The notes beneath the pieces were generated by a model. The model had not been told where the DNA came from. It worked only from the letters and a program-made list of their open reading frames with translations, and made no database searches. A DNA stretch of 64,000 bases, from positions 5,748,501 to 5,812,500 of the forward strand of contig NZ_CP078138.1 in the NCBI RefSeq assembly GCF_019212185.1, written 5' to 3'. Shown here in pieces: positions 48,637 through 63,681 of the stretch. This stretch comes from Pseudomonas fluorescens. GTDB taxonomy: Bacteria; Pseudomonadota; Gammaproteobacteria; Pseudomonadales; Pseudomonadaceae. The stretch's first letter is position 1. Each line of letters opens with the position of its first letter. The position numbers and the translations under genes are program-made.

Positions 48637-49185
48637 ATGGCCAAGCAAGCGCTCATCGTAGTCGATATCCAGAACGACTACTTCCCCCAAGGCAAATGGC
48701 CACTGGTGGGTGCCGACGCCGCCGCTGACAACGCCGCCCGCCTGATCCAGGCGTTCCGCGAAGCAGGGGATTCAGTGGTGCATATCCGCCACGAATTCAC
48801 CTCCGAGGAGGCGCCGTTTTTTACCCCGAACTCCGACGGCGCCAAGCTGCACCCGAAAGTGCTCAACCGTGACAACGAACCGGTGGTGCTCAAACATTTC
48901 GTCAACTCGTTCCGCGAAACCGAGCTGAAATCGATCCTCGACGAACAGGACATCAAGGAACTGGTGGTCGTGGGCAGCATGAGCCACATGTGCGTCGACG
49001 GCATCACCCGCGCAGCCGCGGATTTCGGCTACAGCGTCACCGTGATCCACGACGCCTGCGCCACCCGTGACCTGGAGTTCAATGGCGTCGCGGTGCCGGC
49101 GGCGCAAGTGCATGCAGCGTTCATGGCGTCCTTGGCGTTTGCTTATGCCAGCGTGGTGTCGGCTGATGAGTTTCTCGCTGTCTGA
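48637..49185 (+). CDS. Isochorismatase-family cysteine hydrolase
   Basis: A 182-residue amidohydrolase of the nicotinamidase/isochorismatase family. The catalytic triad is Asp10 (LIVVDIQNDYF), Lys86 (VVLKHFVNSF) and Cys119 (SMSHMCVDGITRAA). CAGAGGAAA precedes the ATG. Divergent GlxA-type regulators often accompany such hydrolases. The substrate is not determined; N-carbamoyl or amide compounds are plausible. Confidence 0.88.
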   Translation: MAKQALIVVDIQNDYFPQGKWPLVGADAAADNAARLIQAFREAGDSVVHIRHEFTSEEAPFFTPNSDGAKLHPKVLNRDNEPVVLKHFVNSFRETELKSILDEQDIKELVVVGSMSHMCVDGITRAAADFGYSVTVIHDACATRDLEFNGVAVPAAQVHAAFMASLAFAYASVVSADEFLAV

Positions 49186-50139: not shown

Positions 50140-50350
50140 GGTCGTTCCTCCTTGCGCGATGTTTGACGTTAGTATACCGACAAATGTCGCGCTGGAAGGC
50201 CTGTGTTCATAGACGTCTGCTCGAATGCTCGGTCCTGGGAAGCGCTATATCTGCTTAATGCGAATTGACTTAGAAGTCTCGCGCCTCGCAAATCACGGTC
50301 AATAGAATCAAGCGGCGCTCACTGATACTTCTGCCACTAGAGGCGCGATC

Positions 50351-50640: not shown

Positions 50641-51468
50641 ATGAGCAAAGTAACCAAGAAATCAGTCATTGGTGTTTCTATCGCCATGGCCGTCTCCATC
50701 TCAGCCATCGTTGCTGGACTTCATTTTCAGAAACAAAACCGATACGCCTACAACGCCGCTGTGGTCGAGAAGCTTACGACCTTGCCGTTTGAGACCAAAG
50801 CACTCACTGAAGAGCAAAAGTCCAAGGCGCTAGATGTCAACCAGGTCAAAAACCGCGCTTTGGTAACTGCCGGCCTCGCTCAGAACTATGACTTACCCGA
50901 ATTCACACGGGAATATGTGCTTCTGCACAATGAAAACAAGGACAGTCCAAAAGATGAGTTCGAAGCACGTCGACGCTCATCAGAAGGCAGGTCTGCTGGC
51001 GAAGAGGCCTTCAGGAAATACCGGGCTGAGTTTGGAAAAACCGCGCCTCGATTCCTCACTGCGAGCGCAGTCATCACACTAGGCCGCTATGACTTCAAGG
51101 CCCAGGCTTTCAATGTGAGAACACCGCAAGGTCGTGGAGGGCCCTTCCCGGCTGCATTTTTCCGGAATATCAGCGATCCAGGCCTGGTGCGTGGGGCTGG
51201 CTCCAGCAGTTTTGAGCGAACAGTCTCCGCAACAAGAGCCTATCAAGTCTCCCTACGCATGTGGGCTGTTCGTGAAAGCGTGGCAAAGGACATCGACACC
51301 GAACGCTTCGCAGTCTATGCAAAAAGCTATTTTGATACGTTGTTCTCTACGTCAACGGGAAAGGGGTTGATGCTTTACTGCGTCCAGGTCGATTTGTTTG
51401 CAGATCCTGAAATGACAATCCCCCTCGGTTCCCAAGGCTGCAACAGCTTCAACGTCACAAGGCTCTAA
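50641..51468 (+). CDS. Membrane-anchored protein of unknown function
   Basis: A 275-residue protein with one N-terminal hydrophobic helix (VIGVSIAMAVSISAIVAGLHF), then an extracytoplasmic domain with charged middle (EFEARRRSSEGRSAGEEAFRKYRAEFGK) and a beta-rich C-terminal half (AVITLGRYDFKAQAFNVRTP, LMLYCVQVDLFADPEMTIP). The ATG follows AAGGGAAAGC. Two cysteines near the C-terminus (YCVQ, GCNSF) could form a disulfide. I do not recognise the family. Single gene in the accessory region. Confidence 0.6.
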   Translation: MSKVTKKSVIGVSIAMAVSISAIVAGLHFQKQNRYAYNAAVVEKLTTLPFETKALTEEQKSKALDVNQVKNRALVTAGLAQNYDLPEFTREYVLLHNENKDSPKDEFEARRRSSEGRSAGEEAFRKYRAEFGKTAPRFLTASAVITLGRYDFKAQAFNVRTPQGRGGPFPAAFFRNISDPGLVRGAGSSSFERTVSATRAYQVSLRMWAVRESVAKDIDTERFAVYAKSYFDTLFSTSTGKGLMLYCVQVDLFADPEMTIPLGSQGCNSFNVTRL

Positions 51469-51749
51469 TTTTCCAACGTATCCAAATCTCAATCATATTG
51501 GTCAAAATAGCAGGAGGGTGCAATGAACCCCCTTGCCGGCTGCATGAGCAACTTATGGCGGAGAGAGCACAATTACGCAGTCTCGTTCGCTGACCTTGAC
51601 TCGGCGTCTCAGTCGGACAGCATCGGCTGCGGGATCGAATCAATGTGGCATAAATTCCTTAACTGTTCGCTGCGTGAATATCTGCCGGTTACGACCGGCC
51701 GGTATGGGTCGGACAGCGACGGTCTGGCATCGACCGTCGCAGTGGGTGG
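51469..51749. other. Gene-free stretch before the recombinase
   Basis: 281 bases with no convincing gene; includes the GC-rich palindromic text CCGGTTACGACCGGCCGG near 51689. Nothing further is supported. Confidence 0.4.
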
Positions 51750-52370
51750 TCAGACTTCGGTCTGTTCCGCCAATTCCAGGGCGTCATCGACCTCGATTCC
51801 CAGGTATCTGACGGTGCTTTCAAGCTTCGTATGACCGAGCAGGAGTTGGATAGCTCTCAGGTTCTTCGTCCTGCGATAGATCAGTGATGCCTTGGTTCGC
51901 CGTAGCGTGTGGGTACCGTACATAGTTGGGTCAAGGCCAATGGCTGTCACCCAGGCTTTGACTATTCGAGCGTATTGCCTGGTGGAGAGATGATCTGAGT
52001 CGTGCAACCGGGTCGGAAACAAGAAGTCCTCACTGCGGAGTTGGGCCTGATGCATCCAAGCCTCCAGAACCGTTCGGGTTTGCTCAGTGATTTCAAATTG
52101 CACTGAGTGCTGAGTTTTCTGCTGCATCACCATGGCCCGTGACGACACATGTTCCCCATGGGCTATGTCTCGTACTCGCAGCTTGGTTAAGTCGCAGGCA
52201 CGCAGTTTGCTGTCGATGGCTAGGTTGAAGAGAGCCAGATCCCGTGTCTTCTCCGCAAGCTGGAGCCTGACCCGGATGGCCCAAATATCTCTGACTCGGA
52301 GCGGGGTTTTCTGCCCGACAAGCTTTCCCTTGTTCCAAGGCTGATGGCTGCATGTAGCAATAGTGTTCAT
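51750..52370 (-). CDS. Catalytic-domain-only tyrosine recombinase (copy 1)
   Basis: A 206-residue integrase consisting mainly of the catalytic domain: the first arginine in DSKLRACDLTKLRV, the HxxR box in YGTHTLRRTKASLIYR, and LLGHTKLESTVRYLGIE with the nucleophilic tyrosine. It lacks the usual N-terminal core-binding domain; the short N-terminus is MNTIATCSHQPWNKGKLVGQ. Complete motifs suggest an active enzyme of a small integrase family common in Pseudomonas accessory DNA. A second copy starts at 63942 in opposite orientation, and the 40 bases before each ATG are nearly identical. Substrate sites are not known. Confidence 0.85.
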   Translation of the reverse strand: MNTIATCSHQPWNKGKLVGQKTPLRVRDIWAIRVRLQLAEKTRDLALFNLAIDSKLRACDLTKLRVRDIAHGEHVSSRAMVMQQKTQHSVQFEITEQTRTVLEAWMHQAQLRSEDFLFPTRLHDSDHLSTRQYARIVKAWVTAIGLDPTMYGTHTLRRTKASLIYRRTKNLRAIQLLLGHTKLESTVRYLGIEVDDALELAEQTEV

Positions 52371-52528
52371 GGTTTGTCCTCCACGTTGAGGGAGGACAAG
52401 GATGGATCAGTCACACAGCGTGGGGGGCGCTATCCGACCCGAAGCCGCCCTTCGTGAAGGGCGGAGATCGGCCAAAAGCAAACCTGTAGGAATCATCCAA
52501 TACGGCGTCAAGAAGTTTCAGTGAAGGA

Positions 52529-52927
52529 TCAGCCGCAGACTTCGCGCAAAGGAATTCTTCCCTTTAGTTCAAGCCAATAAGCCCCCTTAAAAAGTACGAT
52601 ATCTCCACTCGTGAAGACTTCATTTCTATTAAAAGTCTGAACGGCGCGTGGTGCCGCACCGCTGTCAACCGCTTGGCACATGATCAGATAACAAGCAGCG
52701 CCCGCTTGAACCAACTTCACATGACGCAAGCGCTCATCAGCCCCTAGGTCATGAGAAGGTGGGGTTTCTTCAGAAATCCAGATGAATCGTTTCTCTTCAA
52801 TTTTCTGCGTTCCATCCTGCCAGACACGCATAAAAACAGTTCCGTCTGACGCCCTGACACTTCCCCACGACCAGCGCACGTTGTTAAGTGGAGCACCAAG
52901 TTTTTCGAACATTTCGGCTTGACTCAT
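52529..52927 (-). CDS. Protein of unknown function next to the RT locus
   Basis: A 132-residue soluble protein, MSQAEMFEKLGAPLNNVRWSWG at the start, ending LELKGRIPLREVCG. The second ATG (52927) is preferred because AAGGA lies eight bases upstream. The pattern RWSWGSVRASDGTVFMRVWQD recalls the N-terminal part of certain HNH-endonuclease-associated proteins, but no nuclease motif is present, so this is only a recollection of similarity. It is divergent from the reverse transcriptase genes. Confidence 0.55.
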   Translation of the reverse strand: MSQAEMFEKLGAPLNNVRWSWGSVRASDGTVFMRVWQDGTQKIEEKRFIWISEETPPSHDLGADERLRHVKLVQAGAACYLIMCQAVDSGAAPRAVQTFNRNEVFTSGDIVLFKGAYWLELKGRIPLREVCG

Positions 52928-53116
52928 TTTCAGCATCCTTAGAATTCACGATCAGAGTGCACAACAGCCGTTCGCGCGTCCTAACATTTTAAAAACTCAA
53001 AAAATTTCCGAATTGGATTGCATCATCTTGTTCGCTAGTACCTTGAATAGCTGAGAGGAGTCGGCTTCTGCCGTCCCGAATTTTAGCTTTCGGCGCAGAA
53101 CCCCCCCCAAATATGA

Positions 53117-53147: not shown

Positions 53148-53363
53148 GCCCCCATCGGATGACTTGAAAGTCAGAAGACTCTTCAACCAATTGCGGATTC
53201 GTTGGAGATTTTGCATTGGGAGGGTGTGCAGCTGAAACGAGCATTGCCCAGCCAAATCTGTCTTTAGACCGGTACCGCGACTCGCAAATCGGGTACAGTC
53301 CCATAGTGAGCATATCGAAATAGCTACTTAACAAGAATAAATTATGGAAGGGTCATATTGTCT

Positions 53364-54710
53364 ATGGATCAGTCTTTCTCAATAAAGAATCTTAATGATC
53401 TGCTCAAAGGTGATAGAGAGAAGGGTGGAGATCTTGAAGAACGGTATATTCCTGCTGCCTTCGATATAAGAGTAAAACTCTACGAATTGAACAAACTTAG
53501 ATCATTTTCGAAGTACCGATTCCGCACTGGGAAAATTACGCCAGCGCTCTATGAGAAGCGTATATCACGCCTGGCGCTGGTTATAGACAAGCGCAAAATG
53601 CAGCACGGCCGCTTAATTGATCTTGAGCTTGAGAGAGTCTCTAAGATAATTAGTGGAAAAGAATTCAGAATAAATGTAGCTCTACTACCAGCTCTCGTTG
53701 GCGGGAAAAAAGTTTACGGAGTCGGGAATAGTTTAGATCAAGTTCTCGCGATTAGATTTGTTCAGAGAACACTGAAGGTTCTTTATGAGATCCGCATGCC
53801 GTCACGCGATATACTAGTTAGTCAAATAAAGTCATTGGCTTTAGATGGCGTACCGAAATACATAATAAGGTCGGACGTCGAGTCGTTTTATGAGTCTGTC
53901 AGACACAAGGAATTGCTTGATGGAATTCACCAGGCCCCGGAGCTATCGGTACTGATTAAAAGAATTTTAACGAGACTAATGAAAGATTATGTCGTCGTTT
54001 CTGGGGACGAAAACGGATTGCCCCGCGGCATAGGAATAAGTGCATACCTATCTGAGATATATCTGTCGAGTATTGACGCTGAAATTAGACGGCAAGATGA
54101 TTTATTTTATTACGCCAGATATGTTGATGACATGGTTCTTATGTACGCCCCTCAGCGAAAGGAACTCGCAGCGAAATATTTAGAGACTCTCAGTGAAATA
54201 CTTCGTGGAAAGGGGCTAAAATTTAACGATAAAACGAAAACCATTGATTTGCTCGATGAGTTCAAAGGTAAATTTGATTACCTTGGATATACATTTGACG
54301 TATCTAGTAGCTCTTCCGGTGTGCAACTGAGTCAAAGAAAAATTAATAAATATAGATCGCGCATCGATAAGGCTTTCTCAGATTACAACTCAAAGTTCAC
54401 ATTCATTCCGGAGAAGTCTGAAGAGGAATTGATACTCAGGTGTCTTTTTTTAACCGGTAATATGCGCTTGTTTAATAGGAAAAGCAACGCCTTCATCGGT
54501 GTCTACTTTAGTAACAAATATATAACTGATGCCAGCCAGCTTTCCGGGCTAGATCACTATTTTCGCAACAAACTAAAAAGCGTAGCTAGTCCATCATTGG
54601 TTAGAAAGCTCTCGAAACTATCTTTTGAAAAAGGTTTCAAGGAAAAATTATTTAGAAACTTTGATTCCAAGGAGCTTTCAGAGCTTTCGCGAGGTTGGAA
54701 GCATGTCTAG
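53364..54710 (+). CDS. drt3a: Defence-associated reverse transcriptase, Drt3a-like
   Basis: First RT of a two-RT locus that fits DRT type 3. About 448 residues. RT motifs in order: motif A IIRSDVESFYESV (Asp171), motif B GLPRGIGISAYLSEIYL, motif C YYARYVDDMVLMY (Tyr253-Asp256), motif D-like KGLKFNDKTKTIDLL, motif E-like FDYLGYTFD. So the polymerase centre is intact. The start is uncertain: ATG at 53364, or TTG at 53358 with better-spaced AAGGG. The gene is AT-rich relative to the host, indicating transfer. It overlaps the next RT gene by 8 bases. Placement in DRT3 rests on the pair arrangement and downstream RNA candidate; other UG-class RT assignments are possible. Confidence 0.8.
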   Translation: MDQSFSIKNLNDLLKGDREKGGDLEERYIPAAFDIRVKLYELNKLRSFSKYRFRTGKITPALYEKRISRLALVIDKRKMQHGRLIDLELERVSKIISGKEFRINVALLPALVGGKKVYGVGNSLDQVLAIRFVQRTLKVLYEIRMPSRDILVSQIKSLALDGVPKYIIRSDVESFYESVRHKELLDGIHQAPELSVLIKRILTRLMKDYVVVSGDENGLPRGIGISAYLSEIYLSSIDAEIRRQDDLFYYARYVDDMVLMYAPQRKELAAKYLETLSEILRGKGLKFNDKTKTIDLLDEFKGKFDYLGYTFDVSSSSSGVQLSQRKINKYRSRIDKAFSDYNSKFTFIPEKSEEELILRCLFLTGNMRLFNRKSNAFIGVYFSNKYITDASQLSGLDHYFRNKLKSVASPSLVRKLSKLSFEKGFKEKLFRNFDSKELSELSRGWKHV

Positions 54711-56751
54711 AAAAAAAGCATTATCTATAAATTTTCCTGTAGAGCGGGTGGTGTTGTCTGATGTGCTTCCATATGAAGTTCCGATAGTCTTTTCGAATAG
54801 GTACTTTTATAGATTCCTATGTGAGCACGATGTTAAATTTAACGGAAATAGAATTTCATGGAGGTATCGCGATGACGTGCTGGACCATCTTGTAAAAATG
54901 GCTTTAGGTGTTCAGTCAACTAAGGTTGTTAAACATATTGCCGACAATGACAGATCTGTATCCTTAATTGACCTAGACAAATCAGACCTTGTTCATACCG
55001 TTCCTTTCGTCTTCTCGACTACGCATAAACAGGATCAGTTGCGCCAGTTGTCGCTAATGCATCCTAAGGGTCAGTTACTGGTGGTAGACTTCTACGACCA
55101 ATTTAAAGATCTGATGATATATTACACTGGTCGAAGTGAATTCAGTCTGCGATCACCAAGACGAGTTGCTGGGTGCACTTATATTGACTTTCGCTCGCAA
55201 ATTGAGCGACAGGATAAATCTGATACTTTGGTAGAAGTAGATGGCGAAAACTATGAGAACTTGAAGTCTTTTTTCGTATATGAGCGCTTCAGTAATGTTT
55301 TCAAGTTTTACGAGTCGAGAGAACATCTCCTAAGCGAACGTGATTTCCGAAATCTTACGAAATTCGACGTTTCAGGATGTTTTGATAGCATATATACTCA
55401 CTCGTTAGCATGGGCGATATACGGAAAAGATTTTGCCAAGCAGAATCTTAAAACTATATTAGGGTCATTTGCGGGCAAATTTGACTCATTGATGCAAAGG
55501 TTGAACCATAACGAAACTAACGGAATACTAATCGGCCCTGAGGTTTCAAGAATTTTTGCTGAAATAATCCTCCAGGCAGTTGATATTGATATTGCAGGTA
55601 AATTGCTTGAAAAGGGATATGTACATAACACGGATTTCAAAATTTATCGCTACGTAGATGATTACTTTGTCTTCTATAATAGTGACGAAGTTTGCCATCA
55701 AATAAAAATGACACTTCAGGAAAGCTTAAAGCTATATAAGCTATCATTGAACAAGGGAAAGGAGGAAACTCTAGGTCGCCCTATAATCACGCCGATATCT
55801 ATCGCAAAAAAGCGTATCTCAGATCTTTTTGATCGTGCACTAGTCTATGAAATCGCTTCAGAAGTGAAGGATGGAGAAACCTTGCCACGGGGGCAAATTT
55901 ATATTGGCAGATCTTCGCTTATAACGGACTTTAAGTCCATTCTTGCAACCTCTGGCGTTAACTACGGCGAAATTCTCAATTACTCCCTTTCAGTCGTCGA
56001 ACGCAAAATAGGCTCTTTGATTGATTCTTATAAAAAAATAGAGAAAGTCAGCGGTACCGATAAGAGTTTTTCAAAGTCAATGGAAGCTCTTCTAGGTTTT
56101 GTGTTTTTTATCTATGCGGTATCGCCAAAAGTCAACACAACCATTAAGCTTTGTCGAATATGTCAGCGCGTTCTTTCTTTCTATAAGGTAGAGCCCATAG
56201 GGTTAAGCTATGAGGCATTGATCTCGCAAGTGATATACGAAAGATGCCGAAGTGTTATGGATCATAATTCAGATGGCAAAAGTGCGAAAATTGAGGTTAT
56301 GTATCTTCTGGTTTTAATGCGCCAACTTGGTAAAAACTACCGTATAGATGAAAAAGTGCTTGGCTATAGCTTCGGCTTTGAACTTTTAGATGGTCATTAT
56401 CAAGCGAAATCTAGTCTGAATTATTTCTCCATAGTGACTCTTCTTTTTTATATAGAGAACAAATCTCGTTATTCATTACTAAGAAGCGCTTTGGAAAAAC
56501 ATATACTGGAGAGATTCAGGCTGAAGCAGGACTCGTTGGTCGGTGACTCTGAAATGATTCATTTAGCGTTAGATCTTACCGCATGCCCCTTCGTGAGTAA
56601 CGAGACCAAGATCAGGATTTTACAGTTATACGGCTTGCCTGCAAACTACCTGCTGAGAATTCAAAAGTATAGCGAGTATTGGTTCACCAAATGGGGAGAA
56701 TTCGATTTTTCTAAAGAGCTAGACGCTAAGGTTAGTCAGGAAGTATATTGA
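54703..56751 (+). CDS. drt3b: Defence-associated reverse transcriptase, Drt3b-like
   Basis: Second RT, 682 residues from the ATG at 54703, which overlaps the drt3a stop (ATGTCTAG). RT motifs: A LTKFDVSGCFDSIYTHSLAW (Asp222), B TNGILIGPEVSRIFAEIIL, C IYRYVDDYFVFYN (Tyr317-Asp320), D YKLSLNKGKEETL. The roughly 300-residue C-terminal part beyond the palm is mostly helical with no known nuclease motif. An upstream TTG at 54625 would intrude deep into drt3a and is rejected. AT-rich like its partner. Known DRT3 systems pair two dissimilar RTs with a ncRNA and protect against phage; function here is inferred from that similarity. Confidence 0.8.
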   Translation: MSRKKALSINFPVERVVLSDVLPYEVPIVFSNRYFYRFLCEHDVKFNGNRISWRYRDDVLDHLVKMALGVQSTKVVKHIADNDRSVSLIDLDKSDLVHTVPFVFSTTHKQDQLRQLSLMHPKGQLLVVDFYDQFKDLMIYYTGRSEFSLRSPRRVAGCTYIDFRSQIERQDKSDTLVEVDGENYENLKSFFVYERFSNVFKFYESREHLLSERDFRNLTKFDVSGCFDSIYTHSLAWAIYGKDFAKQNLKTILGSFAGKFDSLMQRLNHNETNGILIGPEVSRIFAEIILQAVDIDIAGKLLEKGYVHNTDFKIYRYVDDYFVFYNSDEVCHQIKMTLQESLKLYKLSLNKGKEETLGRPIITPISIAKKRISDLFDRALVYEIASEVKDGETLPRGQIYIGRSSLITDFKSILATSGVNYGEILNYSLSVVERKIGSLIDSYKKIEKVSGTDKSFSKSMEALLGFVFFIYAVSPKVNTTIKLCRICQRVLSFYKVEPIGLSYEALISQVIYERCRSVMDHNSDGKSAKIEVMYLLVLMRQLGKNYRIDEKVLGYSFGFELLDGHYQAKSSLNYFSIVTLLFYIENKSRYSLLRSALEKHILERFRLKQDSLVGDSEMIHLALDLTACPFVSNETKIRILQLYGLPANYLLRIQKYSEYWFTKWGEFDFSKELDAKVSQEVY

Positions 56752-56970
56752 GCAGGATGCATCACGCACATAGAAGACCGTTTGCGGTCGCACACACCAG
56801 CATCATGGCCCGGTTGTTCTATGCACGAAAACCTTGCCTCGTTGAATCCTCGTGAGTTCTGCGGTCTTGACTCCTTCACTTTCCTCATAGCTTTAGGCCT
56901 ACCAGGGGAGTGAAGGAAGCTCGATTACTTCTGCATTTCAATGCGCTATGGATCGCTGCATAGCTTTATA
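56752..56970 (+). ncRNA. Candidate DRT3 non-coding RNA with CACACAC tract
   Basis: The stretch right after drt3b has no gene but clear structure. CATAGAA (56769-56775) can pair with TTCTATG (56817-56823), enclosing the hairpin GACCG-TTTG-CGGTC (56776-56789) and an unpaired CACACAC at 56791-56797. A second long hairpin pairs TCCTTCACT (56872-56880) with AGTGAAGGA (56909-56917), and GCTATG/CATAGC (56945-56964) may end the RNA. The tract fits what I recall of DRT3, whose RNA carries an AC-repeat template for GT-repeat synthesis. Ends are approximate; expression is not shown. Confidence 0.55.
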
Positions 56971-57166: not shown

Positions 57167-58633
57167 TCATTTGACTTTCTTGATGACCGGCGGCTTCCAA
57201 CTACCATCGAGGATGGCCTGCTCACCCCAATACGCTCGGATGTACAAAGAGATGTTCTCTTTTGGCGAAGGCAGCCAGTTGGTTTCCTTGTCCTTGCCCG
57301 GCGATGTTGGTCCCACGTACAGCGTCAGCGAACCATCGGCATTGTGCTTCAGATCCTTGTTCTTGGTGCCCAGGGAGTAACGCTTGAGCGGGTTGTCGCT
57401 AAACAAGTGATGCTGGTTGTAGAGCGTCAGTGACCAGAAGCCCTGAACCGGTGGCTCTTGCCCTTTGGCGAAGGTGACTTCATAGCCATGACTACCATTG
57501 AGTTGAGCACCGGCCCCATCAAGATCACTGTAAAAATATTGAGTTTCATTGGGTCGGTTGTCGAACATGTTCGACTTGGCCGTGCCGGTGCGATTGTAAT
57601 AGTCCACACCCCACTGGGCGTTGTTGGCGGATCGGTTCCAGCCATTGCCGGCCGGACGACCGTTATATTTCCACTGGAAGAACGGTTTGATCACCTCCTG
57701 CTCAGCTTGCTTGGCTACCTCAACGATTGCTTGCTTGATGGCAGGGTCCTTGGCTGCGGCATCCATCAACTGCCGAAATTGAGCGTAGAGTGATTCTTCA
57801 CCGGGTAGCGGTGGAACCATTTTCAGTATTTGCGGGAACTCATCAAAGAACTTCTCGGGGATCACCCATTTGGTTTCACCGGCACTGGCAGAGGATGCAT
57901 TCGGATTAGGGATGATGGGCGATTGCTTCCAGTCAACGGTTTTCATTTTCCCGTCAAAATCGCTGAGGGGGTAAAAGACAATCTGGTTGAGACTCTCCTG
58001 AATAGCCTTGCGATCTTCGGGCGTGCTGTCCATGAACACCCGTGGTATGACGTTGGCCAACGCCGTGGGACTGCGGATGATGCCTTCGACGCCTTCAGGT
58101 TTCTCACCCTTCCAATTGGGCCCGACCAATAGATAAAACCCGGGTTTGGTTTTGTAAGGCTTACCCACTTCGCCAAACTGGTCGGTACGCTGGTCGTACA
58201 GGGCATAGACCCAGAAGCGATCACCGAAATCCGGCACCTGCGCAATGACCGGTTGCTCGTCCAGCGAGAAAAAGCCCAAGCCATAGGTCACATCCTGGTT
58301 TGGACAAGTGACGAAGGTCTCTGACGGCAGAATGTAATCATGCAACATCGAGACGTGGCCGAAGGGTGCCACCGGTAGAATCCCACCCAGCAGACCTGGC
58401 TTGGGCGCCTTGGTGATGGTCTGACTGCGGTTGAGCATGTTCACCATTGGCCAACCCCACACATATGCCATACGCGCAATGGTCTTGGCGTACTCGATGT
58501 GCATGGTCACATCGCTTGTCGGCTGCGTAAGGCTCGCAGGACTGACTTGAGCTTGCTCCTCAGCGTGGAGCGAAGGCGCACAGAAGGCCAGAACGGCCAT
58601 GGCTGATGTAAGGGTTTTTAAAGCGTGTGTCAT
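57167..58633 (-). CDS. Secreted DUF1254/DUF1214 protein (long form 1)
   Basis: A 488-residue predicted periplasmic protein with signal peptide ([17 protein letters not shown]). The DUF1254 half has the family motif NxDxxY in [18 protein letters not shown]; the DUF1214 half has [16 protein letters not shown] and [27 protein letters not shown] supports the ATG at 58633 over one nine codons upstream. It has a paralogue at 62176 and shares with it a promoter module. The family's biochemical function is unknown to me. Divergent from the short paralogue at 58983. Confidence 0.8.
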
Positions 58634-58747
58634 CGTCGACTTCCTCGCATGGTTTGACATCTGCGGCGTAGAGTCGAATTGATGGGCTGGTGTGAAAGTC
58701 TTGTGTAGCGGACACCCAGCATCCGTGCTCCCCGACCGACGCCTAGG

Positions 58748-58775: not shown

Positions 58776-58982
58776 GAATGGCTTCTGGTCGATAGTTGGA
58801 CAGTTTCAGAACTGCCCGTTTAGCTTTCGGCATGCCCCGCATCATCTCTTTTCTCGACTACGCTTCGGGCTGGAGGTTAATCGTACTTTCCTTCACGCGA
58901 TCTCGATTACCTGGTCGACACTCTCGTCAGGTTCGCAACTACTTCTTAATTGCAGTCGATGGGAAATAAAGGAATAGAACCA

Positions 58983-59996
58983 ATGATAAGCATGAGAAAG
59001 ATTTTGCTCTGTATTACCCTCTTGGGAACAGCCACTGCACACGCCGGACAGCAGGTGACGCCTGACAACTACGCCCGCGCCGAAGTGGACGAATCCTATA
59101 AAAATATCGTCAAAGATGTGGGGTCGAACGCCTTTCGCCACGATAGGGCGGTTATGCCCTTGGACAAGCAGCCTGCGGTCACCATGAACCGTGACACGGT
59201 GTATTCATTTGGTGTGTTTTACGTGCCCGAGGGCACAACCATCACCTTACCGAAATCAGCTGACAATCGTTATCAGTCGGCGATGATCATGCAGAACGAC
59301 GACTTCACCGATCAGGTTTTTTATGCGCCGGGGACTTTCGAGATCAAGTCGAAAACCGAGTTTGCGGCGGTGGTCATGCGTACGCAGATCAATCCTAACG
59401 ATCCTGGCGACACCCAAAACGTCAAAACACTTCAGGATGGCATCAAGGTCAATTGGCCAAAAGGCACGGTGCCCAAGGAATACAAAATCGTCGACTGGGA
59501 CGAAGCCAGCCGTATGAAACTGCGTTCCGAGTATCAAAAAGAAGCCGCCAAGTTGACGAATTTCAACGACACCTCAGGCGCTCGTGGGGTCATCAAGCCG
59601 GAAATGCTTCGACTCAGTGCGTCAGTTGCACTTGGGCTTTTGCCGGCGAAAGATGCCGTGTACCTCTACCGTGATTACGGTTTGAGTGGCGACAAATGCT
59701 ACAAAGCGACCTATGCCAAACCCGAGATTCTGGAGGGCGGGTTCTTTTCCTTCACGATGTATGGGGCCGATAAATACCTGAAAAGCGAAGACTCCAACCT
59801 GAACAATCGCGCCATGCACTTCAATGAAGACGGCACCTTCACCGTGCACTACGGCCCGAAAGAGAAGTGCGGGCAGGTTGCGAATTGGCTGCCTACACCG
59901 GGCGATAACTGGTACCTCGGCATGCGCATCTATCGCCCTGGCGAAGGTGTTATCAGCGGCAAATACACCATACCGGAACCAACTGCCGTCAATTAG
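58983..59996 (+). CDS. Secreted DUF1254/DUF1214 protein (short form 1)
   Basis: A 337-residue periplasmic protein with signal peptide (ILLCITLLGTATAHA). DUF1254-type core PLDKQPAVTMNRDTVYSFGV, then the DUF1214-type C-terminus FFSFTMYGADKYLKSEDSN, FTVHYGPKEKCGQVANWLPT and WYLGMRIYRPGEGV. AAGGA lies nine bases before the ATG at 58983. Closest in the window to the protein at 60926 (compare ELDKQPAVLMNRDTLYSFA). Function unknown. Confidence 0.8.
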   Translation: MISMRKILLCITLLGTATAHAGQQVTPDNYARAEVDESYKNIVKDVGSNAFRHDRAVMPLDKQPAVTMNRDTVYSFGVFYVPEGTTITLPKSADNRYQSAMIMQNDDFTDQVFYAPGTFEIKSKTEFAAVVMRTQINPNDPGDTQNVKTLQDGIKVNWPKGTVPKEYKIVDWDEASRMKLRSEYQKEAAKLTNFNDTSGARGVIKPEMLRLSASVALGLLPAKDAVYLYRDYGLSGDKCYKATYAKPEILEGGFFSFTMYGADKYLKSEDSNLNNRAMHFNEDGTFTVHYGPKEKCGQVANWLPTPGDNWYLGMRIYRPGEGVISGKYTIPEPTAVN

Positions 59997-60080: not shown

Positions 60081-60902
60081 TCAGCGTGGGAATAGCATGG
60101 TGATGGCGAAACGAAAACCCCAACCTTGTGGACCATCGTCAGGGCTGTCGAGCCAATAGCGCGGCCCCGCTTGCACTGTCAGTGGCTGGCCGCCAATTTT
60201 CAGCAATTGAGTCACCGTCAGGTTGACCGGCACCGACCATTCGCGTGATTGCCAGTTGTAAGTTGATTCAGTGTTCACCCCCCACGTGGTCAACGTGCTG
60301 GTGGTATAGGAGAGGAAGGGTTGCAGGAAGGTCTGGTTGACCTTGTCCTTGTCATCCGGCGGACTGCCGTCCAAGCCCCAGATATGATTGGCCAGAATAC
60401 CGTGCGTCCAGCCGTTTTCCTGCTTCAAGGCAACGGCGGTCGGACCAATCCCCCACTGTTCGTTACCGAGTAACTCGTCGCTGCCGGTGGGAATCAAAAT
60501 CGCCGGGCCCACTCCGAGTATCCATCCACTGTCAGTGGGCTGTTTGGGCGAAAAGAAAAAACTCTGGGTGATGTCGCCGACACCGGATTTGTCCGCCGCG
60601 CCATTGGCTGCCAAACCGTGCTGGTCGATGACCGGCAGGATGGTACGGGAGATAAGATTCCAGTCATCATTTAATGAAAACGGCAGCACCGGTTGAATAT
60701 TGGTGACGCTGTGCATGCCGTCACCGGTCGGGCCTATCTTCTGATCCCAGTTGTACTGCACCGGCAGGCTGTACATGGCCGCGACCGGATTAAGCGCTTT
60801 CTTGGCCAGCTCTGCCGAGTCCTCTGCCTGAGCCCCCGGCATGAACCCCAGGATTGCGACGAGCGTCGCCCCCATACTCCAACATGGTTTATCCATCCCC
60901 AT
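60081..60902 (-). CDS. Outer-membrane-type beta-barrel protein (MetA/phenol-degradation-like family)
   Basis: A 273-residue secreted protein with signal peptide (GATLVAILGFMPGAQA). The text LPVQYNWDQKIGPTGDGMHS, ILGVGPAILIPTGSDELLGN, YTTSTLTTWGVNTESTYNWQ and final AITMLFPR suggests a beta-barrel of the 'MetA-pathway of phenol degradation' family (PF13557-like). Good AGGGGC before the ATG. Follows the DUF1254 gene at 60926 by 23 bases, so they form an operon. Likely an outer-membrane channel, ligand unknown. Confidence 0.7.
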   Translation of the reverse strand: MGMDKPCWSMGATLVAILGFMPGAQAEDSAELAKKALNPVAAMYSLPVQYNWDQKIGPTGDGMHSVTNIQPVLPFSLNDDWNLISRTILPVIDQHGLAANGAADKSGVGDITQSFFFSPKQPTDSGWILGVGPAILIPTGSDELLGNEQWGIGPTAVALKQENGWTHGILANHIWGLDGSPPDDKDKVNQTFLQPFLSYTTSTLTTWGVNTESTYNWQSREWSVPVNLTVTQLLKIGGQPLTVQAGPRYWLDSPDDGPQGWGFRFAITMLFPR

Positions 60903-60925: not shown

Positions 60926-62032
60926 TCACTGGCTGACAGGCTTTGGCTCCGGCAGTTTGTACTCGTTGTTCTGAACCGACTTGTCGGGCATATAGACCCG
61001 GAACGCGAGTGTCCAATTGTCCGTGGGTGCGGTCAGCAAGTTCGCTGCATCCTTGCCGCAGCTTTGCGGGCTGCCAAAGTGCAGGGTGAAGGTCTTGCCA
61101 TCCTTGTTGGGCACGATCTCGTGGTTCGAAAGGCTGGAGCCCTCCTCTGTGTGCAGGTAAAGATCATTCCCGTAAATCGTCATCGAATAGAACCCCAACT
61201 GCGGGTTGGCCATGCCAGGCACGGGGTAATTCGCGGTGTAGCAGGTGTCTTTCTTGACCTTGTACGACTTGAACGAATACCAGGCATGCTGGTCGGGCAA
61301 TAGCCCGGTCGCCACGGCCACACCGACGTTGATGTCATCCTGCGGGATCGAGCCGCGAGCCCCCATGGTTTTGCTCACGCCACGGGTGTCGGCGACTTTC
61401 ACGTAGTGCGCTTTCACCTGCTTCAGTTGCTCCTGGTTCCAGTCAATGGCCTTGAACGCTTTGGGTGTGTAACCCGCAGGGAAGCTGACCTTGTACTGAT
61501 CCTGGATGGCATTGGCCTTCGCCACGTCGGCTGGATCATTCGGGTTCACCTGAGTACGGATATTGACCACAACAAAATTGGTGACTGTTTTCGGGTCGAT
61601 GGTGTATTCACCCTCGCCGTAGTAGACGTTGTCGGTAACGTGGTCGTGCTGCATGACGTGCACGGAGGTGTAACGGCCATCGCCCTTGGGCACATGGATG
61701 GTGGCGCCGTGAGACGCATCGATGATGGCGAAGGAATACAGCGTATCGCGATTCATCAGCACGGCTGGCTGCTTGTCGAGTTCCATGGGTTTGCGGTGGT
61801 TATAGAACTTGTTGGTCGCGCCGAGCTTCACCTCATTCTGCATGGACTCATCTAGCGTGGCGAAAGCGAAATTTTCTGGGGTAACAGCAACGTTCTTTTC
61901 GTTGACCAGCGTCGACTCCAATTTTCGGGCTGCATCCAAGGTAAGGAGGGGTGTTTTATCCTCGGCCTGTGCAGCATGGATACTCGTTGCCAATAGACTC
62001 AACAGGACAGTAGTGGGTGCCAGTAACTTCAT
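60926..62032 (-). CDS. Secreted DUF1254/DUF1214 protein (short form 2)
   Basis: A 368-residue periplasmic protein; signal peptide LLAPTTVLLSLLATSIHAAQ. Core ELDKQPAVLMNRDTLYSFA with the NxDxxY motif, then LGFYSMTIYGNDLYLHTEEG and FTLHFGSPQSCGKDAANLL. AGGAG eight bases ahead supports the ATG at 62032. A cysteine pair CYTANYP and SCGKD matches the spacing in the protein at 58983, so the short forms share a likely disulfide or metal site. Cotranscribed with the barrel gene after it. Confidence 0.8.
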   Translation of the reverse strand: MKLLAPTTVLLSLLATSIHAAQAEDKTPLLTLDAARKLESTLVNEKNVAVTPENFAFATLDESMQNEVKLGATNKFYNHRKPMELDKQPAVLMNRDTLYSFAIIDASHGATIHVPKGDGRYTSVHVMQHDHVTDNVYYGEGEYTIDPKTVTNFVVVNIRTQVNPNDPADVAKANAIQDQYKVSFPAGYTPKAFKAIDWNQEQLKQVKAHYVKVADTRGVSKTMGARGSIPQDDINVGVAVATGLLPDQHAWYSFKSYKVKKDTCYTANYPVPGMANPQLGFYSMTIYGNDLYLHTEEGSSLSNHEIVPNKDGKTFTLHFGSPQSCGKDAANLLTAPTDNWTLAFRVYMPDKSVQNNEYKLPEPKPVSQ

Positions 62033-62175
62033 CGCAATCGCTCCTTGCAAAAATTAAAGTACAGCTTGTCAGTGATTCAGCAGTGCCTCCGGTTGATGGG
62101 AGGTCTGATGCCATTCGGCAGAAGCGGTCATCCGACACGCCGCTGCCACCATCGATGGGCCCGATTTTTTGTTCA

Positions 62176-63681
62176 TTACTTCACTTTGACGACATCGTCA
62201 GGCTTCCAAGTTTGGTCGTAGAACGCGTCTTCCGCGCCATACAGGCGCAAGGCGACCAAGAAATTGCGACCGGGGATGGTCTGGATGAACGCGGAGTCCG
62301 CGACATCAGCAGGTTTGTCCGGCCCGAACCAGATTTCGATGGAACCGTCCGACTGCTTGGGAATGTCGTAATAACCGTTGGTGGAGGGCATCAGTTGCTT
62401 GGTCTGCGGCATGGTGCCGTCGGTGATGTTGTACGCCGTAACAGCCCAGAACAACGCTGCCGGAGCATTCGGCGGCAGACGCAGCTTGTAGGTGCCGCCA
62501 CCTTCGAGATATTTCCCGTCCTTGTCGCGAGCGGTGAACGGATACTTGGAACCGGCGCCAGTGGTGTGCATCACCATTGCCGGTGCCGATGAATAGGCAA
62601 ACTGGAAGAAGTTAGCGCGCTGACTCACGTCCAGGTAACTTTCTTGCATCCACTCCGCCGTGCCACCCGCCCAGGTGTTCTCGTACTGGCGATCCGCATA
62701 GTAGAGATTACGTTTGTCCTCGCGCCCCAACTGGCGGTTAGCCAGGATCATTCGAGGCGCCATCTCGACCGCCTTCTTCAGCAGGGCCTGTTGCTGCTCG
62801 GTGGGTTTGAACGGCTCACCCTTGATGATTCCGATGGACGCCAGCACCCCGCGCAGTTCCGGGTCAATTGCCTCTACCGGTTCGTAGTCGACAAACGCCT
62901 TCAACTTGGTCCAATACTCATTGTCCGTTGGATACATCATATTCAACGCCTTGCCACTGGCGTCAGGGAACTCCATGGGCTTGACGTCCTTCTCCGTCGC
63001 CCACAGTGGGTAGACTCGCGTAGTTTCCGCAGAATTAACCGCCGGCGCCGGGTCAGGCTTGCCGTCGCCCTTGGCCATCACGGTGCGGAAGAACAAGAAC
63101 ACGTTATAAGTACGCGACTTGACAACGAAATAGCTGGCCGGCACCGGCCCGGTGTAGTCCGGTGGCAAAATCAGATACAGGCCGCCTCGCGCGCGGTCTG
63201 GCCCCACGGCACCGACATCGGTGAGCGTACGCTGAAAGAAGTCGGTGAACATGCCGATGACGTTAGGTGGCGCCTTGACTACCAGCGGCCCGGTTTTCTT
63301 CAGATCCAGATAGCTCATGGAATAGATCACGTCCGCATTGGGCGTCGGCACCATGGCGCGTGAATCCATACGCTGCTTCCAGATTGGCAGCACGTTGTAG
63401 CCGCTTCCGAACGCTTTCTCCGATCCGTCACGCAAGCCAATGACATTGAGTGCCGGCAGCATGGTCATGTAGGCGTGAATCGCGCGCTGGTAGTACAACT
63501 CGTCACGCAGGGACTCGGCCTCCTTCGGATCGAGCCAGTTGCCATTATTGAGCTGTTTGAGCAGTGGAGAAGCAGGTGCCTGTTCCTCCGCACTGATCAT
63601 CGGGGTGAAGCACAGCGCGACGACCAGCGTCGAGGCGGTCAACATCATTGTGACTGAAAGCTTTTTTAACGCGTGAGTCAT
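62176..63681 (-). CDS. Secreted DUF1254/DUF1214 protein (long form 2)
   Basis: A 501-residue periplasmic protein with signal peptide (MMLTASTLVVALCFTPMISA). DUF1254 half: YQRAIHAYMTMLPALNV, MVPTPNADVIYSMSYLDL; DUF1214 half: AALFWAVTAYNITDGTMPQ, IEIWFGPDKPADVADSAFIQ and NFLVALRLYGAEDAFYDQTW. AAGGA eight bases upstream. Very like other DUF1254 proteins of 450-500 residues. Paralogue of the gene at 57167, sharing its promoter module; leads the operon that continues into 60926 and 60081. Confidence 0.82.
   Translation of the reverse strand: MTHALKKLSVTMMLTASTLVVALCFTPMISAEEQAPASPLLKQLNNGNWLDPKEAESLRDELYYQRAIHAYMTMLPALNVIGLRDGSEKAFGSGYNVLPIWKQRMDSRAMVPTPNADVIYSMSYLDLKKTGPLVVKAPPNVIGMFTDFFQRTLTDVGAVGPDRARGGLYLILPPDYTGPVPASYFVVKSRTYNVFLFFRTVMAKGDGKPDPAPAVNSAETTRVYPLWATEKDVKPMEFPDASGKALNMMYPTDNEYWTKLKAFVDYEPVEAIDPELRGVLASIGIIKGEPFKPTEQQQALLKKAVEMAPRMILANRQLGREDKRNLYYADRQYENTWAGGTAEWMQESYLDVSQRANFFQFAYSSAPAMVMHTTGAGSKYPFTARDKDGKYLEGGGTYKLRLPPNAPAALFWAVTAYNITDGTMPQTKQLMPSTNGYYDIPKQSDGSIEIWFGPDKPADVADSAFIQTIPGRNFLVALRLYGAEDAFYDQTWKPDDVVKVK

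Follow-up and report, generated by a model that had tools for sequence, protein, structure and literature searches.

What kind of system is encoded by two unlike reverse transcriptases (RTs) lying side by side in a Pseudomonas fluorescens chromosome, and from what template might it work? The locus lies in a 64,000-nucleotide (nt) stretch of contig NZ_CP078138.1 (positions 5,748,501 to 5,812,500; the window hereafter), and a preliminary description based on the letters alone had likened it to the anti-phage system DRT3. According to passages of PMC13174585, whose mechanistic work concerns E. coli proteins, DRT3 makes a DNA duplex in which an RNA templates one strand and side chains of a protein template the second. 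Here we present evidence that the locus is very probably a complete DRT3 system, comprising Drt3a, Drt3b and a non-coding RNA (ncRNA) in cis, that it is carried on a chromosomal island and belongs to a lineage termed W below, and that it would work by the steps that we propose. DRT3 is a known kind of system and is already present in this genus; what looks new is the lineage, with a second RNA architecture that has a 5'-proximal template, a covarying pseudoknot-type helix and a promoter-like element.

The two reverse transcriptases and their conserved residues

The cassette and its two genes are as follows (the labels of the window, of fetched loci, L, and of genomes, G, are our own numbering):

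53333..56943, + strand: conserved DRT3 cassette (drt3a, drt3b, ncRNA), delimited by the extent of its nucleotide match, 80% identical, to Pseudomonas sp. MYb185 (L013)
53364..54710, + strand: drt3a, UG3-type RT of 448 residues from ATG, YVDD at residues 253-256
54703..56751, + strand: drt3b, UG8-type RT of 682 residues, YVDD at residues 317-320

Both frames are intact and overlap by 8 nt, both products keep the YVDD active site, and the GC content per kb is 0.39-0.44 over 53-57 kb of the window versus about 0.6 in the chromosomal DNA left of it, in agreement with the overlapping, AT-rich gene pair that had been described; an alternative start of drt3a at a TTG (53358) is possible. Profile searches assigned the two proteins to separate families, as expected of the unlike RTs of the preliminary description: Drt3a matched the NF041747 equivalog with 338 bits (cut-off 200) and was given the same name by PADLOC (2.9e-106), and Drt3b matched the NF041748 equivalog with 690.9 bits (cut-off 350), again with the same name from PADLOC. 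Both equivalog matches run the full length of the proteins. The group_II_RT_mat equivalog scored 79.5 and 37.7 bits against the two RTs, below its cut-off of 300, and the retron RT model gave Drt3a 38.8 bits, below a cut-off of 235, and did not list Drt3b; a search of the window with Rfam at gathering thresholds recovered no match. The best hits thus did not go to group II intron or retron RTs, the outcome that had been named as refuting the DRT3 assignment.

For comparison we used a set of 121 sequences comprising the window, 10 annotated loci, 80 genome loci (the best 80 of 469 contig stretches encoding a relative, the fetch being ranked by similarity to the window) and 30 viral loci. By their record titles the 80 listed relatives include Pseudomonadota, Bacteroidota and other groups. 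Viral contigs scanned with the window protein alone gave no match, and scanning them with an alignment gave the 30 matches, several of which are merely distant RTs. After leaving out 14 sequences with an incomplete or distant Drt3b, 107 were counted.

In EcoDRT3b, E22 acts as the gate for dA and R241 as that for dC, R71 has a stacking role, nucleotide and metal are bound by D182, F187 and YVDD, and Y666 is the primer (PMC13174585). Alignment to PDB 26cz, whose numbering is offset by 108 residues by a SUMO fusion, as follows from the numbering itself, pairs these with E25 (E22), R114 (R71), D222 (D182), F227 (F187) and R283 (R241) of the window protein. Its last residue, Y682, aligns with the last tyrosine of L099, i.e. 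the primer Y666, since the protein of L099 is EcoDRT3b, as its 1470.6 bits to 26cz and its end at chain residue 774, which is 666 without the offset, indicate. Across the 107 sequences R283 and Y682 are invariant, R114 is present in 106 and the first gate is glutamate in 103 and aspartate in 4. The aspartates are confined to L006, L102, L104 and L108, all of lineage E (defined below), and L011 has asparagine in place of R114. Because of the equivalog profiles, the gate and primer residues and the ACACAC-bearing RNA predicted downstream, it is strongly supported that this is a genuine DRT3 locus, a known kind of two-RT anti-phage system with a presumed role in defence, as the preliminary description had surmised.

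Two lineages and the RNA downstream of drt3b

A FastTree phylogeny of the 107 Drt3b proteins splits 19 that group with EcoDRT3b (lineage E) from 88 that group with the window protein (lineage W) with a support of 1.000. Lineage W is thus the larger among the complete loci kept (88 of 107), in a fetch ranked by similarity to the window. The split is mirrored in other characters: the template lies 101-261 nt after the drt3b stop codon in E versus 24-84 nt in W, the E gate and the counterpart of R71 are 48-58 residues apart in E (71 in L104) versus 62-104 in W, and Drt3a runs for about 183-197 residues from its start to YVDD in E versus about 240-265 in W, with truncated or odd starts set aside. 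From these comparisons we judge that lineage W is deep and distinct from E. The branch to which the window belongs is a less studied one, and both solved DRT3 structures that we found group with E. EcoDRT3 (PDB 26cz, PMC13174585) shares with the window locus the order drt3a-drt3b-ncRNA, an ACACAC downstream of drt3b, YVDD in both RTs, the E and R gates and a C-terminal priming tyrosine; however, its template lies 128 nt past the stop codon and is followed by a terminator-like hairpin, whereas in the window it lies at 40 nt, short of the at least 100 nt of an EcoDRT3-type ncRNA, and is followed by the helices P3-P5 described below. In EcoDRT3 the stretch of Drt3b from the E gate to R71 is also shorter, by about 40 residues, and Drt3a is about 58 residues shorter before YVDD. 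PDB 9z6y/9z6z, with Drt3a and Drt3b chains, represents the same two-protein family but is nearer to E, scoring 456.6 bits to L102 versus 223.8 to the window protein. A close relative, L013, has 88% Drt3b identity, its 80% nucleotide identity over the cassette extending to the ncRNA and its P5 hairpin. More distant lineage-W loci from enterobacteria (L002, L008, L016, L017, L018, L020) have about 50% Drt3b identity and the same ncRNA architecture.

In the published system the ncRNA lies downstream of drt3b and presents 5'-ACACAC-3' in a loop, from which Drt3a copies poly(dTdG) (PMC13174585). ACACAC occurs within 450 nt past the drt3b stop in 105 of the 107 loci, versus a mean of 8.4 and a maximum of 17 in 200 dinucleotide shuffles and 52 of 1588 control windows taken from these loci. 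L069 (Schmidhempelia) and L072 (Gilliamella), the two loci without it, have a lineage-W Drt3b and a template shortened to CACACA at +77, and are missed by the covariance model introduced below. The elements predicted for the window RNA are:

56755..56923, + strand: predicted DRT3 ncRNA of the lineage-W type, both ends being predictions (the covariance-model match spans 56751-56864)
56756..56760, + strand: 5' arm of helix P1, GAUGC, partner 56800-56804
56762..56766, + strand: 5' strand of the pseudoknot-type helix, UCACG, partner in the P4 loop at 56851-56855 (CGUGA)
56776..56789, + strand: hairpin P2, GACCG-UUUG-CGGUC, adjoining the template on its 5' side; candidate for a template boundary element
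56792..56797, + strand: ACACAC, predicted RNA template for Drt3a poly(dTdG)
56800..56804, + strand: 3' arm of P1, GCAUC
56808..56837, + strand: stem-loop P3 with a bulged G; loop UAUGCAC in the window
56839..56864, + strand: stem-loop P4, with the 3' strand of the pseudoknot-type helix in its loop
56872..56917, + strand: P5, a 14-bp hairpin (56872-56885/56904-56917); possible 3' end of the RNA

P5 was found in the subclade of the window and is absent from six more distant loci, 14 sequences having been folded; the nucleotide match to L013 stops at 56943, shortly past it. To obtain the remaining helices we aligned 19 sequences with MAFFT and ran RNAalifold without guidance, which recovered the cores of P1-P4 with two-sided changes in 21 of the 30 predicted pairs. 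P1-P4 were then completed by eye, and a further helix was added that pairs the loop following the 5' arm of P1 with the P4 loop. Over all 35 pairs, 92.1% of the cells are paired versus 70.0% in shuffled and 36.8-42.9% in slid alignments, and the covariation is 0.688 versus 0.251 shuffled; the added helix alone is paired in 94.4% of cells with a covariation of 0.549, versus 0.151 shuffled and at most 0.114 slid. On a larger alignment of 73 sequences the added helix is paired in 92.4% of cells and its covariation is 0.679, versus 0.299 shuffled and at most 0.175 slid. This pairing is not favoured by the covariance model, R1, because R1 was built from 15 sequences (the window and 14 relatives) with the added helix left out. 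The run-length pairing of the helix also exceeds that obtained by swapping loops (mean 7.0 versus a maximum of 5.5 in 500). Thus, on comparative data alone, the stretch 3' of drt3b is judged to be a structured RNA, and the helix between the P1 and P4 loops is a genuine base-paired element, the sequences fitting an intramolecular pseudoknot and a contact between RNA copies alike.

A search with R1 over the window and 99 loci (1.09 Mb, both strands) recovered 73 matches at E <=0.1, all on the + strand. Counted from the base that follows the drt3b stop, 71 of them begin at -3 to +5 nt and the remaining two at +35 (L071) and +40 (L004). These matches comprise 71 of the 88 lineage-W loci, none of the 19 lineage-E loci, and L003 and L088, in which drt3b is incomplete. 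L003 (CP083496.1, an E. coli plasmid) has its drt3b annotated as two open reading frames (ORFs), and its ncRNA score equals that of the intact copy L002. In the window's own 6.34-Mb genome R1 gives a single match, of 99 bits, and that genome has a single Drt3b. No match was obtained in the other 21 related loci, in 19 same-genus loci (7 with Drt3b and 12 with other RTs), or in 368 other genomes of the class searched under stricter filters with at most 10 candidates scored in each genome listed. Only one of those 368 (G505) has a Drt3b above cut-off, with its template at 144 nt, i.e. in the lineage-E layout, and hence that search serves as a test of specificity only; neither the same-genus nor the class set held an independent lineage-W locus, so that the sensitivity figures of R1 pertain to the fetched loci. 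With R1 lineage-W systems become findable, and their RNA provides a second solution to the same templating job for comparison; the E and W RNAs were compared here through R1 and the position of the template. EcoDRT3 and its close relatives served to build the published covariance model, which reached 32 unique hits according to the methods and 41 systems according to the legend (PMC13174585), and the word 'pseudoknot' is absent from the main text of that paper. Among the papers listed by a literature search, most of them judged from the listing, we recognised none describing a lineage-W RNA, and Deng et al. 2026 may describe one.

A promoter-like element, the proposed mechanism and its alternatives

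The last codons of drt3b contain a second conserved signal:

56720..56725, + strand: -35-like hexamer TAGACG, inside drt3b (codons L673-D674-A675)
56744..56749, + strand: -10-like hexamer TATATT, over V681, the priming tyrosine Y682 and the first base of the stop codon

We compared codon usage in 77 genes with a template 20-60 nt past the stop and a C-terminal tyrosine, of which 49 were kept at <80% identity. The last valine codon (V681) is GTA in 41 of 48 cases versus 425 of 1867 elsewhere in these genes, and the codon of Asp674 is GAC in 38 of 41 versus 610 of 1839. D674 (0.93) and V681 (0.85) are the two most uniform in codon among 177 conserved positions, and among the 27 of four-fold type V681 is followed by a next best of 0.52. 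The two positions sit within the pattern TNGACG-N18-TATAYT, with sigma-70-like spacing, and the mean site score of 8.88 exceeds the maximum of 8.20 among 200 synonymously recoded sets. The ending GTATAY plus stop is absent from all 19 genes of lineage E. The codon constraint suggests that the ncRNA is most likely made from its own promoter, located within the final 11 codons of drt3b, counting the stop, and from the positions of the hexamers a start about 4-6 nt past the stop, just before P1, is predicted; the activity of this promoter and the ends of the RNA are predictions of the present analysis.

Taken together with the published work on EcoDRT3, from which we infer the products, priming, trigger and outcome for the window copy, these features suggest the following course. 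The ncRNA would be transcribed from its own promoter embedded at the end of drt3b and fold such that ACACAC is held by P2, the boundary hairpin, on one side and by P1, the closing helix, on the other, with the pseudoknot-type helix linking the P1 loop to the P4 loop. Drt3a would repeatedly copy ACACAC into poly(dTdG), with P2 acting as the 5' template boundary by analogy to stem-loop 5 of the DRT10 RNA (PMC12632851). Drt3b, primed by Tyr682, would add alternating dC and dA to yield poly(dCdA), E25 and R283 taking the place of a template. The two strands could then anneal to double-stranded DNA that is tolerated as long as RecBCD degrades it, and a phage that blocks RecBCD would cause the duplex to accumulate and the cell to arrest. 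For EcoDRT3 the removal of the duplex by RecBCD, its build-up upon phage inhibition of RecBCD and a proposed arrest of the cell are described in PMC13174585. The resemblance to DRT10 ncRNA and telomerase RNA, both of which place a short template beside a boundary stem-loop and yield a tandem-repeat product (passages of PMC12632851), is an analogy only. On balance we lean towards the view that two deep lineages would arrive at one TG/CA duplex through RNAs of different construction, that of W having a telomerase-like layout (closing helix, 5' boundary hairpin, template and pseudoknot) and driven by a promoter in the last drt3b codons whose -10 element shares bases with the codon of the priming tyrosine. 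This view yields testable predictions on the coupling of template boundaries, ncRNA transcription and the priming residue.

Several observations weigh against this reading. A plain promoter scan of the region did not exceed chance (10 versus a mean of 8.3, standard deviation 2.7), the promoter match in the window is just 9/12, and in the -35-like hexamer the second base is free and the last is mostly G versus the consensus A. The single-sequence fold of the window RNA is unremarkable (z = -0.77), so the structured non-coding stretch asserted in the preliminary description stands by covariation and fails by this measure. The P3 and P4 stems of the window have 2 and 1 mismatches, and its pseudoknot-type helix has 5 pairs, not 6. 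On the alignment of 73 sequences, 433 of 500 shuffles have at least as many pairs changed on both sides as the added helix does, because most of its pairs vary anyway. Furthermore, R1 misses 17 of the 88 lineage-W loci with a complete Drt3b; six of the 17 (L032, L050, L060, L068, L080 and L093) have a stop-to-template spacing of 24-32 nt and no hairpin of more than 3 bp immediately upstream of the template. These six may lack the boundary element or have another in its place, and P2 is therefore not universal; the likewise short-spaced L075, L083 and L092 keep a 4-bp hairpin.

These points bear on alternatives to parts of the reading. The pairing of the P1 and P4 loops could be a kissing contact between ncRNA copies rather than an intramolecular pseudoknot, given that in the published DRT3 complex, a 6:6:6 assembly, the RNAs lie along the central axis (review PMC13314766) and that pairing in cis and in trans is indistinguishable by covariation. 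However, about 85 nt separate the two strands within one small RNA, and passages of PMC12632851 describe a stem-loop or pseudoknot at the boundary of the template as broadly conserved in telomerase RNA; we regard the kissing contact within a hexameric complex as possible, though clearly the less probable arrangement. A little less probable still is an ncRNA that lacks its own promoter and arises by processing from the 3' end of the operon mRNA, with GAC and GTA fixed by an element acting at the RNA level, such as a processing or protein-binding site. The RNA does begin at the stop codon, which would suit such processing, as would the imperfect promoter match, but the codon-fixed positions lie in the hexamers TNGACG and TATAYT, which an 18-nt spacer separates as in the -35/-10 pair of a sigma-70 promoter, and within the last 16 codons only D674 and V681 rank among the ten most codon-fixed of the 177.

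Two further alternatives concern the locus as a whole. An AT-rich cassette in an island between recombinase fragments might be a decayed, functionless DRT3 copy, but the frames are intact, the catalytic, gate and priming residues are all kept and the RNA retains its compensatory changes, which makes decay very improbable. The weak, sub-threshold matches to group II intron and retron profiles could point to another RT system, namely a group II intron, a retron or a diversity-generating element; with scores far under the family cut-offs, a window devoid of Rfam matches and full-length matches to Drt3a and Drt3b, we give this next to no chance, no search aimed at a variable-repeat target having been made. 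A complete and presumably working DRT3 system of lineage W is the reading we retain.

The island and the distribution of DRT3 in the genus

The locus had been described as lying between inverted recombinases, and this proved accurate: inverted repeats of about 710 nt, 86% identical, lie at 51706-52415 and 63897-64605 (the second mostly past the window), and each harbours a short tyrosine-recombinase ORF with a Pfam Phage_integrase match, of which the right one has 252 residues. They flank an 11.5-kb segment with DRT3 and four DUF1254/DUF1214 proteins:

51750..52370, - strand: tyrosine recombinase ORF of 206 residues in the left repeat arm (Pfam Phage_integrase)
57167-58660, 58950-59996, 60926-62050 and 62176-63681: cluster of four DUF1254/DUF1214 genes (Pfam)

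A 273-residue protein encoded within this cluster (60081-60902) has no Pfam match, and two ORFs of the island at 52529-52936 (- strand) and 50641-51468 (+ strand) have no match in Pfam or PADLOC. Past the window (L012) there follow an ORF of 135 residues and ORFs of 677, 508 and 426 residues that adjoin ssb. Pfam detects an integrase domain in the 426-residue ORF, a sub-threshold one in the 508-residue ORF and none in the other two. Relatives of the 677-residue protein (about 40% identity), annotated as integrase, directly precede drt3a in enterobacterial loci L002, L003, L008, L016 and L017, and relatives of the 135-residue protein (about 45% identity), annotated as hypothetical protein, do so in the same loci and in L018, though not in L020. 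In enterobacterial lineage-W DRT3 the module lies directly upstream of drt3a, whereas in the window genome it lies about 9 kb downstream of the cassette.

The insertion site lies between position 49158 of the window and ssb (L012:11530-12039). When 12 same-genus relatives were searched with both flanks, these lay near each other on one contig in four, and on different contigs or far apart in eight. The flanks are about 140 bp apart in G010, 4.7, 8.8 and 4.8 kb apart in G002, G005 and G011, and 22.4 kb apart here. Given this empty site in one relative and shorter inserts in three, the locus is cargo of a 22.4-kb island in an integration hotspot beside ssb. The mobility that had been proposed is accordingly backed by the island, which carries an integrase module of its own, and by the relative whose site is empty, and not by the recombinase fragments alone. 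Direct repeats at the island ends amounted to chance-level matches of 10-14 nt, with no att site found, and a tRNA scan found none. Over 3 kb the chromosomal part of the window is 87% identical to the Pseudomonas bananamidigenes genome that holds L077, and a nucleotide comparison of L013 with the island gave no match outside the cassette.

Two expectations of novelty in the preliminary description fared less well. An extension of the host range by a Pseudomonas copy is contradicted by the 8 of 298 same-genus genomes, this one included, with Drt3b above cut-off, and by the named Pseudomonas records that carry it (L013, L077 and L084). The second RT is indeed large at 682 residues, yet this size is ordinary for its lineage. 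Of the 7 other same-genus DRT3 loci, six were read (L125 is the seventh) and have the template 132-182 nt past the stop, i.e. the lineage-E layout. Finally, five related 37-nt intergenic repeats lie around the locus at 50349, 50383, 52444, 53112 and 57069; they were weighed as a cassette boundary and rejected, and the exact pattern drawn from two of them occurs just twice in the genome.

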